A stretch of 64,000 nucleotides of DNA from Halorubrum coriense DSM 10284. Lineage in GTDB: Archaea; Halobacteriota; Halobacteria; Halobacteriales; Haloferacaceae. Made by a program: the position numbers and the translations under genes. Within the stretch, counting starts at the first letter, position 1. Each line of letters starts with the position of its first letter. A model generated the notes under the pieces. It had not been told where the DNA came from. It was given only the letters and a program-made list of their open reading frames with translations, and searched no databases. Shown here in pieces: positions 59,419 through 63,430 of this stretch. The stretch spans positions 1 through 64,000 of the forward strand of contig NZ_AOJL01000017.1 in NCBI RefSeq assembly GCF_000337035.1, in the 5' to 3' direction.

Positions 59419-60687
59419 GTGGTCGGTGAGGCGCGCGACCCCGAGAGCGACGTCGGACCGCTGGACGGGCTCACCGTGTTGGACCTCTCCCGCGTCCTCG
59501 TGGGACCATTCTGTACCATGCAGCTCGGCGACCTCGGCGCGGAGGTGATCAAAGTCGAGCGCCCCGGTCGGGGCGACCAGACCCGTACCTGGGTCCCGCC
59601 GGCGTTCAGCGCGGACGACGAAGAAGACGGAACTGACGGCGAGGGCGACGCGAGCGCCTACTACGTCAGCGTCAATCGCAACAAGCGGTCGATCCAGCTG
59701 GACCTGACGACCGAGGCGGGGCGCGCGGTCGTCCGCGACCTCGCCCGCGAGGCCGACGTGCTCGTCGAGAACTTCCGTGTCGGCAAGACCGAGGAGTGGG
59801 GGCTCGGCTACGGCGACCTCGTCGAGGCGAACCCCGGGCTCGTCTACTGTGCCATCTCCGGCTACGGGGAATGGGGTCCCGACCGCGACAAACCCGCCTA
59901 CGACATCATGATGCAGGCCCGCGGCGGCTTCATGTCGTTCACCGGCGTCGAGGGCGGACCGCCGGTGCGGATCGGCGTCGCGCTCGCCGACGTCGGAGCG
60001 GGGATGTACGCGACGCAGGCGATCCTCGCGGCGCTCCTCGAACGCGAGCTCGGCGACGGTCGCGGGCAGAAGATCGACGTGAGCCTGTTGGACGGGCAGG
60101 CCGCCTGGACCAGCTACATGGCGACGAACTACTTCGCCAGCGGCGACCCGCCGGGGCGGATGGGGAGCAAACACCCGAACATCGTCCCCTATCAGGCGTT
60201 CGAGACCAGCGACGGGTACGTCGTCGTCGCCTGCTCGTCGGACCGGTTCTGGCCGCCGCTGTGCGAGGCGGTCGATCGCCCGGACCTGCTCGCCGACGAG
60301 CGGCTGGAGACGAACGAGGGCCGCGTCCGGAACCGCGAGTTCCTCGACCGCGAACTGGGCGAGACGTTCGCGGCGATGTCGACGGAAGAGGCGGTCGAGC
60401 GGCTCGAAGCGCACGACGTGCCCGCGAGCCGCGTCCGCGACGTGAGCGAGGTGTTCGCGGACCCGCAGATCGAGGCGCGCGGCATGCTCGCCGAGGCGGA
60501 CCACCCCACCGCGGGCACGGTCCGGTTCCCCGGCTCGCCGATGCACTTCTCGCGGACGCCGACGACCGTCCGCCGCCACCCGCCGGCGCTCGGCGAGCAC
60601 ACGGAGTCGGTGCTGCGGGAGTACGGCTACGGCGCGGGCGACGTCGACGAGTTGCGAAAGATCGGCGCGATTCCGGAGCCGGAGTGA
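59419..60687 (+). CDS. Class III (CaiB/BaiF) CoA-transferase, mesaconate-type
   Basis: This 422-residue family III CoA-transferase opens with DGLTVLDLSRVLVGPFCTMQLGDLGAEVIKVE. The catalytic-Asp region appears as DKPAYDIMMQARGGFMSFTG, and GGPPVRIGVALADVGAGMYATQAILAAL follows. Haloarchaeal relatives include succinyl-CoA:mesaconate CoA-transferase of the methylaspartate cycle; the neighbouring CitE-type lyase and isocitrate-lyase-family genes fit C4/C5 dicarboxylate chemistry, but formyl-, itaconate- or carnitine-type substrates are not excluded. Starts at GTG; its 3' end faces the CitE gene. Confidence 0.83.
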   Translation: MVGEARDPESDVGPLDGLTVLDLSRVLVGPFCTMQLGDLGAEVIKVERPGRGDQTRTWVPPAFSADDEEDGTDGEGDASAYYVSVNRNKRSIQLDLTTEAGRAVVRDLAREADVLVENFRVGKTEEWGLGYGDLVEANPGLVYCAISGYGEWGPDRDKPAYDIMMQARGGFMSFTGVEGGPPVRIGVALADVGAGMYATQAILAALLERELGDGRGQKIDVSLLDGQAAWTSYMATNYFASGDPPGRMGSKHPNIVPYQAFETSDGYVVVACSSDRFWPPLCEAVDRPDLLADERLETNEGRVRNREFLDRELGETFAAMSTEEAVERLEAHDVPASRVRDVSEVFADPQIEARGMLAEADHPTAGTVRFPGSPMHFSRTPTTVRRHPPALGEHTESVLREYGYGAGDVDELRKIGAIPEPE

Positions 60688-60716: not shown

Positions 60717-61637
60717 CTACAGGATGCCGGCCCGTTCGGCGCGCGCGACGATGCCGCGGGCCATCTTGTCCGTCGCCTCGTCGACCATCTCGCCGTCGAC
60801 CGAGACGGCGCCCCTGCCCTGTTCTTTCGCCTCCGCGTAGGCGTCGACGATCCGGCGGGCCTTCTCGGCCTCCTCGGGAGAGGGCGCGAACGTCTCGTTC
60901 GCGGGCTCGATCTGGCTCGGGTGGATCGCCCACTTGCCGTCACAGCCCAGCTGGCTCGCCCACCGACAGGAGTCGCGGAACCCCTCCGCGTCCTCGATCT
61001 CGGCGTAGGGGCCGTCTATCACCTGTAAACCCTGCGCCTTCGCCGCGTGGGCGATGCGCGCGAGCTGGTAGTGCCAGTAGTGGCCGGGGTAGCCGCCGCC
61101 GGAGCCGATGGTGAGACCGGCGGCGCCGACGTTCGCGGTGTAGTCGCCGGGGCCGAAGACGAGCGACTCCAAGCGGTCGCTCGCGCGGGCGATGTCGGCG
61201 ACCTTCGTCATCGCCTCCGGCGACTCGATCTGCGCCTGGAGGCCGATCTCGCCGACCGGCAGGTCGTTGTTCGCCTCGACCTGCGTCAGCAGGTTGTCGA
61301 CGGTGGCGACCGTCTCCGGGTTGTTCGCCATCGGCACCATGATCGTGTCGAGGTACTCGCCGGCCCGCCCGACGACCTCGATCACGTCGTCGTAGAACCA
61401 CCGGGTGTCGACGCCGTTCATCCGGTAACAGGGCCGGGTGTCCGACCAGTCGTACTCGATCAGCCCCTCGATGGCGTTCTCGCGGGCCTCGATCTTCTCG
61501 GACGGTGCCACCGAGTCCTCCAGGTCGATGAACGCCTCGTCGGCCCCGGAGTCGGGCGCCCGCTCGATCATCTTCGGGTCGGAGCCCGGCGTCGCCAGCT
61601 GGCTCCGCCGGAGGGTGACGTCGTCCGGCCCGCCCAT
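60717..61637 (-). CDS. HpcH/HpaI-CitE-type lyase
   Basis: This 306-residue CitE-superfamily TIM-barrel lyase has the core motifs ADEAFIDLEDSVAPSEKIEARENA, RMNGVDTRWFYDDVIEVV, LQAQIESPEAMTKVADIARAS and VFGPGDYTANVG with a metal-binding Glu/Asp pair. Such enzymes cleave L-malyl-CoA, beta-methylmalyl-CoA or citramalyl-CoA, or act as malate synthase with an added thioesterase. Its ATG overlaps the aceA stop (TGATG), so the lyase and the isocitrate-lyase-like enzyme are co-translated and probably handle glyoxylate together. Confidence 0.85.
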   Translation of the reverse strand: MGGPDDVTLRRSQLATPGSDPKMIERAPDSGADEAFIDLEDSVAPSEKIEARENAIEGLIEYDWSDTRPCYRMNGVDTRWFYDDVIEVVGRAGEYLDTIMVPMANNPETVATVDNLLTQVEANNDLPVGEIGLQAQIESPEAMTKVADIARASDRLESLVFGPGDYTANVGAAGLTIGSGGGYPGHYWHYQLARIAHAAKAQGLQVIDGPYAEIEDAEGFRDSCRWASQLGCDGKWAIHPSQIEPANETFAPSPEEAEKARRIVDAYAEAKEQGRGAVSVDGEMVDEATDKMARGIVARAERAGIL

Positions 61638-62680
61638 CAGTCGTCACCCCCCTCGGAGGCGGTGATCGGGTCGTTCTCGTCCTCGGTGAAGCCGGCCGAC
61701 TCCTCCTGGCGCTTCCGGGCCTTGGGGTCGAACTCGGCCTCGATGTCCTGATACCGCGGGACGAAGGAGAGCTCGTGGTGGCTCTCGGTCTCGTGGCCGA
61801 TGTAGCGCTCTTCGAGGTCGAACTGCGCCGCCTCGTCGTTCTCGGCGATGTTCGCGAAGTCCTCGTAGGCGGCGTGCGCGCCCGAGTGGAGCCCGTACAG
61901 CGTGATGAAGATGTACTGGTAGCCGAGGTCGCCGAGCTCCTCGAAGGTGAGCGGGTCCTCCTCGGCGCCCCACTCGAACGACGAGGAGTAGTTGAAGGCT
62001 AAGTCGAGGTCCGGGTGGGTCTCGTGGATCGTCTCGGCGTACTCGACCGCGTCCTCGCGGGACGGGTCGGGCATCTCCGGCCAGACGAGGTCGACGCCGG
62101 CGTCGGCGTAGATCCGCCCGCGTTCGAGGTGCTCCTCCCAGTCGCCGTTGGCGGAGCCGTACGCGTCGGTACGGGCGATGATCACCGTGTCCTCGCTCTG
62201 CTTGGCGTCGACGGCGGCCTCGAACCGCGAGCGCGCCTGCTCGCGGGAGACGATCTGCTTGCCGGCGATGTGCCCGCAGCGCTTCGGCGAGGTCTGGTCC
62301 TCGATGTGGACGGCGGCGACGCCGGCCTTCTCGTACTCGCGGACCGCGCGCCGGACGTTGTGGACGCCGCCGTAGCCGGTGTCGCAGTCGGCGATGACGG
62401 GGAGGTTCGTCGCCTCGACCATGCGCTTCGCGTTCTCGACCATCTCGGACATCGTGACCATCTCCAGGTCGGGGAAGCCGAACTGGCCGAGGACGGTCGA
62501 GTAGCCGCTCATGTAGGCCGCGTCGAGCCCGGCCATCTCGGCGAGGCGGGCGTCGAGCGCGTGGTAGATCCCGGGCGCGAACGTGTACTCCTGCTCGTCG
62601 AACAGCTCGCGGAGTCGGCGGCCGGCCGGGTTGTCGATATCTCTGGTGAAGACGTCGTCGTCGAGTTCGTTGGGGTTCAT
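61637..62680 (-). CDS. aceA: Isocitrate lyase family protein
   Basis: This 347-residue isocitrate lyase/PEP-mutase-superfamily enzyme has the active-site loop [14 protein letters not shown] containing the catalytic Cys, metal/substrate residues in [19 protein letters not shown] and VHIEDQT, and NYSSSFEWG near the C terminus. It would cleave isocitrate to succinate and glyoxylate; methylisocitrate or dimethylmalate lyase activity is the main alternative. The start lies four bases after the stop of the repeat-motif frame upstream, and its stop overlaps the CitE-type gene. Confidence 0.9.
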
Positions 62681-62684
62681 CGGG

Positions 62685-62889
62685 TTACTGCGTGGTGGCG
62701 TCGTCTGCGGTGCGGTTCGACGCGGCGGAGCGCCCGCCGGCTCGGCGAGCGGTGGGGGCGAACGCCGTGGCGTCCGGGCGCGGACCGCCGCCGGTCCCGG
62801 TCATCGGGACGGCGCGTCGGAGCGACTCCCCGGAGTTCGCGTCGGTGAGACGGTGCGGGAACGGCGCGTCGCGTTCGCCGTCATCGCGA
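62685..62889 (-). other. Shifted-frame continuation of the repeat-motif protein
   Basis: One base out of frame from the upstream coding sequence, an open frame continues the same composition with DDGERDAPFPHRLTDANSG and ends at TAA four bases before aceA. Removing one G from the run of six G at 62890-62895 (minus strand) would join both parts into a single protein of 179 residues. The third copy of the DAP motif lies in this part. Confidence 0.5.
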
Positions 62890-63225
62890 CCCCCCGTCGG
62901 TCCGCGTCCGCGAAGCGGGGCGGAGGTCGGGGACCAGCGGCGCGTCGCGCTCGTCGTCGGTCGGCGGCCGGGCGGCCGGGCGGGCCTCGGTCGGCTGCGG
63001 CGAGCCTGGCGACCGCGTCTGCGTCGCTCGCCGGGTGGTGATCGTCGGGACCAGCGGCGCGCCGGCCTCCTCGGTCAACGGGGTGCGACCGGGGATCGTC
63101 CGCGGAGAAGTGGTCGTGTCGTCGGTCGCGTCTGACCGGTCGGTCGCGTCCGAATCGGTCGGTCGGTCGGTCGTGGTGTCGGTGCGTCGGGTCGTGTCGT
63201 CGGGCGTGTCGTTAGGTGTCGTCAT
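62881..63225 (-). CDS. Thr/Asp-rich repeat-motif protein upstream of aceA (frame interrupted)
   Basis: This 114-residue disordered protein is rich in Thr, Asp, Arg and Pro. It carries two copies of a short motif, AGAPLVPTITTR and RDAPLVPDLRPAS; a third related motif occurs in the shifted frame that follows. It is the first gene of a likely operon with the isocitrate lyase and CitE-type genes. No family is recognised. The AT-rich region upstream (63336-63400) provides its promoter. It may be a frameshifted larger protein, a slippage-regulated gene or a precursor-like peptide. Confidence 0.5.
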   Translation of the reverse strand: MTTPNDTPDDTTRRTDTTTDRPTDSDATDRSDATDDTTTSPRTIPGRTPLTEEAGAPLVPTITTRRATQTRSPGSPQPTEARPAARPPTDDERDAPLVPDLRPASRTRTDGGSR

Positions 63226-63430
63226 CGGGTCGCGTGGGCGGCTGCGGCGGTCGTCTGGTGATCGCGTCTGTGCGTCGGGCGGCTGCGTGTCCGCGTACGG
63301 ATACTGCCATTGCGACCGAAACAAATCGGAGAAGGGTAATAAACGTAATGATTGATAATGATAATATTCGTTATGTTGTTTTACTCGATTAAATGTTCCA
63401 TGACAACAATAACCACGACCGGAGGGAACG

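Follow-up and report, generated by a model that had tools for sequence, protein, structure and literature searches.

Among the known systems closest to the protein reported here is CP12, the regulator of GAPDH and phosphoribulokinase. According to a review (PMC9406205), it is small, of low complexity and disordered, and is proposed to act on its enzymes through short binding elements. A second related system is found in the translationally coupled subunit pairs of haloarchaea (Huber et al. 2019, 2023), in which the genes share 4-nt ATGA overlaps; reinitiation studies in Haloferax volcanii link such overlaps to heteromeric complexes (PMC6728339, PMC10666635). In this species, complex subunits account for 45.2% of the gene pairs spaced at -8 to +10 nt and for 5.6% of those spaced more widely (PMC10666635), and growth on acetate depends on the isocitrate lyase gene aceA (PMC7746861). 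A literature search on HVO_1983-1985 returned no matches, and a companion protein of the kind described below is not mentioned in the H. volcanii ace papers found. The ace operon of H. volcanii was reportedly sequenced by Serrano and Bonete in 2001, and that report may mention the ORF. Other Haloferax genomes carry a companion of 81-96 aa directly before aceA, with the motif MDAPLVPFI and a helix.

The window analyzed here is the whole stretch of 64,000 nucleotides from Halorubrum coriense DSM 10284 (genome G000), and its named close relatives are Halorubrum species. On the minus strand, three small ORFs precede aceA: ORF1 (63212..63310), whose 3'-end overlaps the start of ORF2; ORF2 (62881..63225), which encodes a disordered companion of 114 aa rich in T, P, D and R; and ORF3 (62685..62884). 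ORF2 ends normally at the TGA at 62883-62881, as it does in 37 Halorubrum loci, and its stop overlaps the start of ORF3 as ATGA (62881..62884, from alignment with the relatives) in 36 of 37 loci and as GTGA in the remaining one. As judged from these alignments, ORF2 and ORF3 are separate genes with a 4-nt overlap. ORF3 ends 4 nt before aceA, just as the initial annotation of this DNA had reported for the last ORF. The aceA gene itself (61637..62680, minus strand) encodes 347 aa; its product scores 108 bits with Pfam ICL (cut-off 26) and 123 bits with PEP_mutase (cut-off 31.5), stays below the cut-off of the NCBIfam equivalog models, and is 81% identical to a Haloferax prahovense protein. Downstream of aceA lies the gene of a CitE-like lyase (60717..61637, minus strand, 306 aa), to which a CaiB-like CoA-transferase gene (59419..60687, plus strand) is convergent.

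The ORF2 companion resembles CP12 in being small, disordered and of low complexity with short candidate binding elements beside a central-carbon enzyme. However, it has no conserved cysteine pairs and no match to the CP12 family in Pfam or NCBIfam; the enzyme is a different one, no sequence similarity is claimed, and we infer its binding. With the haloarchaeal coupled pairs it shares the 4-nt ATGA overlap, but unlike those pairs the upstream partner is an uncharacterised disordered protein, and the complex here is only putative. A comparable case is WP_266080981.1 of Haladaptatus caseinilyticus (plasmid record), a 62-aa protein with EEEAPIVPIV whose gene overlaps aceA by 4 nt like those of the companions and which RefSeq annotates only as a hypothetical protein.

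ORF2 behaves as a protein-coding gene. It was initially noticed for encoding AGAPLVPTI and RDAPLVPDL just upstream of aceA, and such an ORF is indeed present, with the first motif copy, AGAPLVP, at 63046..63066 and the second, ERDAPLVPDLRP (including RDAPLVPDLRP), at 62917..62952, both on the minus strand. In alignment with other Halorubrum genomes its frame is open in 37 of 37, at lengths of about 93 to 134 codons, in place of the missing frame or the indel pattern expected of non-coding DNA, while the other two forward frames are interrupted by stops in all 37. Differences per codon position amount to 0.20, 0.15 and 0.37, which is the pattern of a protein gene. Over the Halorubrum loci the region of motif 2 gives pN 0.010, pS 0.327 and dN/dS 0.02, and a 16-codon segment ending in motif 1 gives pN 0.067 and pS 0.330, these segments having been picked after the alignment was seen and with no sequence excluded; at the level of these substitutions motif 2 is under strong purifying selection. 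In the genus alignment the linker varies freely but the motif does not. Antisense coding was considered and rejected: in 26-28 of 37 Halorubrum genomes two of the antisense frames are open as well, which is due to GC content, and the constraint sits on the sense frame.

The motif is also specific to this place in the genome. A degenerate DNA pattern for [DE]APxVP has one match in the 3.6 Mb of G000, at 62924-62946 and adjacent to aceA, and the reversed control has none; by this count the APLVP motifs are not a chance occurrence. Among 89 aligned copies of A-P-L-V-P, V is found in 85 and A in 80, an invariance that is partly by construction, since the pattern used for the search required both prolines and allowed few residues at the rest of the core, with the flanks left free. 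The core is followed mostly by D or F and then by L or I, and acidic residues are common just before it, so that the motif reads [A/L]-P-[L/V]-V-P-[D/F]-[L/I] with acidic residues ahead and occurs in one or two copies. ORF3 has a conserved motif of its own, VPMxGTGxGPRPDxTTF, in about 39 loci of the genus. The companion has no family match in Pfam, NCBIfam or PHROGs; short, low-complexity and GC-rich ORFs with a single conserved motif can evade family models. The reading as an unrecognised disordered motif-repeat protein encoded together with a glyoxylate-shunt enzyme stands, and the idea of short binding motifs was a reasonable guess, but the supposed third repeat copy does not hold. It had also been proposed that the protein is a multi-core precursor peptide, for which no maturation enzyme is found nearby (the neighbours are aceA, the CitE-like lyase, the CaiB-like CoA-transferase and thiL), and a repeat core of APLVP without Cys or Ser is an unlikely RiPP substrate.

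The observation turned out to be real and wider than first stated. ORF2 occurs in 39 of the 40 Halorubrum genomes with aceA and in none of the 12 without an intact one (Fisher p = 6e-11, relatedness ignored); in the single exception, G029, aceA is divergent and belongs to a different type. Outside Halorubrum, with motif variants scored by eye, 60 of 85 aceA loci have an adjacent small disordered ORF bearing [A/L]PxVP, namely 42 of the 45 from the family of Halorubrum and 18 of the 40 from other families, and the companion stop overlaps the aceA start by 4 nt in 36 of the loci outside the genus. Haloferax prahovense, Halobaculum litoreum and Halobellus rarus are examples of species with the companion. 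Its architecture takes several forms (g and f numbers are our own handles): two motifs in a disordered chain in Halorubrum, Halobellus, g18 and f7; one motif with a predicted helix in Haloferax, g10, g19 and g26; one or two motifs with a charged tail or helix in g6, g16 and g21; and short forms of 41-50 aa, with TGLPVVPDL and a VWSHR-like tail, in f12 and f14. The companion is absent beside aceA in many haloarchaea, mostly in f4 and part of f5, and hence it is not needed for the lyase reaction. What is new is a widespread motif-bearing companion of haloarchaeal isocitrate lyase that matches no family model and is probably a partner of the enzyme. Its position ahead of isocitrate lyase in most haloarchaeal aceA loci examined suggests that a way of controlling or assembling the enzyme has been overlooked. 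Textbooks present the glyoxylate shunt as a branch point of carbon flow, and the companion is testable in a genetically tractable archaeon.

Some genomes bear on how the companion and the lyase travel. In G073 the companion is of the f12 type and the neighbouring isocitrate lyase clusters with f12 enzymes, at tree support of 78 or less, which is consistent with joint transfer of the two. G451 has two aceA genes (loci L134/L186 and L135/L187): the first kind, of the local f4 type, lacks a companion, and the other has a two-motif companion and groups weakly with an f3 gene; it is possible that companion and lyase were transferred together here too. The lyase tree as a whole is poorly resolved and has 7 changes of state, from which gains and losses cannot be counted securely. 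The residues separating lyases with a companion from those without it lie mostly in the variable N-terminus and follow lineage. Apart from this, the aceA-negative genome G032 holds leader fragments and an internally deleted aceA at contig edges (L044, G032:C35:1-1500). The deletion is large and in-frame, comes after MNPNEL and stands behind an intact-looking ORF3; it may be either a MAG assembly artefact or decay.

Our preferred reading, to which we give an even chance, is that ORF2 encodes a translationally coupled disordered companion that binds isocitrate lyase through its motif. ORF1 to ORF3 would be read from the ace promoter, and translation would pass by termination-reinitiation through the small ORFs into isocitrate lyase; the overlaps at ORF2/ORF3 and, outside the genus, with aceA itself are those of coupled pairs. 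The companion would then contact the lyase through the short motif. Many lineages have the motif in two copies or combined with a possible oligomerisation helix, and for this reason a role in tethering or regulating lyase tetramers, in the manner of CP12, is suggested; whether the outcome would be inhibition, assembly, stabilisation or channelling is more speculative still. A bolder version takes the companions as an undescribed haloarchaeal family in which doubled motifs, or a motif with a self-associating helix, cross-link lyase tetramers into a regulated scaffold. We regard this version as tentative and rather unlikely; if true, the glyoxylate shunt would have a dedicated disordered scaffold made in step with the lyase by translational coupling.

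Structure prediction bears little on the choice. For AlphaFold2 the companion stop was read as serine, giving pseudo-fusions in one chain with a monomeric lyase, an arrangement that is in-frame in few genomes. In the two runs the lyase folded well (mean pLDDT 81 and 84). The motifs reached a pLDDT of about 34-42 (motif 1) and 50-56 (motif 2) for L285 and of 42-49 for L283, a Haloferax-type companion in which a helix after the motif, residues 49-75, is predicted at 84-92. Neither run gave a confident docking of the motif on the lyase, here a monomer of a tetrameric family and with few paired motif sequences. Since the family is tetrameric and the lyase was modelled as a monomer, the docking result is weak evidence either way.

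Among the alternatives, the one that survives best holds that ORF1 to ORF3 mainly set the expression of aceA by leaderless initiation and coupling, and that the peptides themselves do little. The cassette lies exactly between the ace promoter and aceA. The promoter element, GAATATTATCATTATCAATCATTACGTTTATT (also GAATATTATCATTATCAATCATTATGTTTATT), at 63338..63369 on the minus strand, is an AT-rich stretch of 32 bp with a 31/32 match to the genus consensus, against maxima of about 13-20 for shuffled sequence, and when up to 3 mismatches are allowed its core has a single match in G000. It is nearly invariant before ORF1 in all companion-bearing Halorubrum loci, and over much of the order it is well conserved too, even at aceA operons without companion (homologous sites L003-L162); it is probably an ace-specific operator with a TATA box. 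The start codon of ORF1, which encodes 32 aa (MAVSVRGHAAARRTDAITRRPPQPPTRPDDDT), follows the TATA-like end at about 27-30 nt, and therefore ORF1 is probably leaderless, an arrangement that is common in H. volcanii. ORF1 is conserved in 37 loci of the genus, with differences per codon position of 0.15, 0.11 and 0.16; the third position is thus as conserved as the others, unlike in ORF2, which indicates that the nucleotide sequence is constrained too. In G150 and G151, moreover, the ace promoter stands about 35 nt from aceA and the ORF1-ORF2 stretch is cleanly missing, and so this stretch resembles a cassette that a locus can lack. These features, together with the conserved ATGA couplings, are what leader control would lead one to expect. 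However, in the interior motif of ORF2 the amino acids are constrained and the synonymous sites vary (pS 0.33, pN 0.01), proteins of differing architecture in several families share this motif, and Rfam has no match at the locus. We consider it unlikely that the small ORFs serve mainly for control of this kind. Beside this, ORF1 alone may act at the RNA level or as a leaderless start module, and a small ORF akin to it is found at the equivalent place in many other companion-bearing genera.

It is also conceivable, though in our estimate quite unlikely, that the motif binds malate synthase, another enzyme of the glyoxylate pathway, a chaperone or a regulator, and that co-expression with aceA serves timing. 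The models with no docking on isocitrate lyase fit such a partner, as does the operon of the window, which runs on into the CitE-like gene. Nevertheless, it is usually the start of aceA that the companion gene overlaps, and nearly all Halorubrum genomes with the companion either lack the canonical malate synthase AceB or have one that scores below cut-off. The CitE-like lyase of the window scores 61.7 bits with NCBIfam AceB_Halo against a cut-off of 780, and better, yet also below cut-off, with the citE and RipC_Ccl models; by these scores the gene after aceA is not the canonical haloarchaeal AceB. An AceB that exceeds the family cut-off is present in just 1 of 52 Halorubrum genomes; the lyase is therefore a likelier partner than malate synthase, and malate synthesis in Halorubrum may run via a malyl-CoA-type route.

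An adaptor for proteolysis or quality control, targeting isocitrate lyase for turnover once acetate runs out, would likewise be a small disordered protein made together with the lyase, with a short motif and acidic flanks. This is otherwise speculation, we know of no degron that the motif resembles, and we hold the adaptor to be very unlikely.

The weakest reading, a single ORF split by a frameshift at a G-run through error, phase variation or programmed slippage, has in its favour the run of six G with adjoining frames and an ORF3 that in the window genome is one base out further downstream, but 36 of 37 relatives have ATGA, many relatives have an interrupted run and the start of ORF3 is conserved, which makes it extremely improbable. 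The GGGGGG at 62890..62895 (minus strand) is there as first reported, forming G-G codons near the end of ORF2. It stays G-rich in nearly all Halorubrum relatives, yet is interrupted in many (GGGGGA, GGAGGG, GAGGGG, GGGAGG), and since it is broken while the ATGA overlap is kept, there is no frameshift at 62890-62895. The initial annotation erred on this point: the proposed gene of 179 residues is two genes in the relatives, the third motif RDAPFPHRL had been read one base out of frame with ORF3, and slippage or phase variation finds no homopolymer kept at the junction in many of the 37 relatives. ORF3 starts at its own ATG at 62884 (a conserved start overlapping the ORF2 stop, GTG in one relative) and reads MTANATRR... 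in the relatives. The G-run lies 6-11 nt 5' of this ATG, a spacing that fits a Shine-Dalgarno-like role for ORF3.

The sole anomaly of frame is the deletion of one nucleotide within ORF3, between 62855 and 62854, where the window has CCCGC-ACCG and the nearest relative (L004) has CCCGCGACCG; it is absent from the relatives compared and may be either real or an error of the draft assembly. By this deletion ORF3 is ended early and falls into a 5' piece of 27 residues (62801..62884, starting MTANATRR) and a 3' piece of 39 residues (62685..62804) that carries the conserved ORF3 motif, both on the minus strand, and the two pieces meet in another ATGA (62804-62801).
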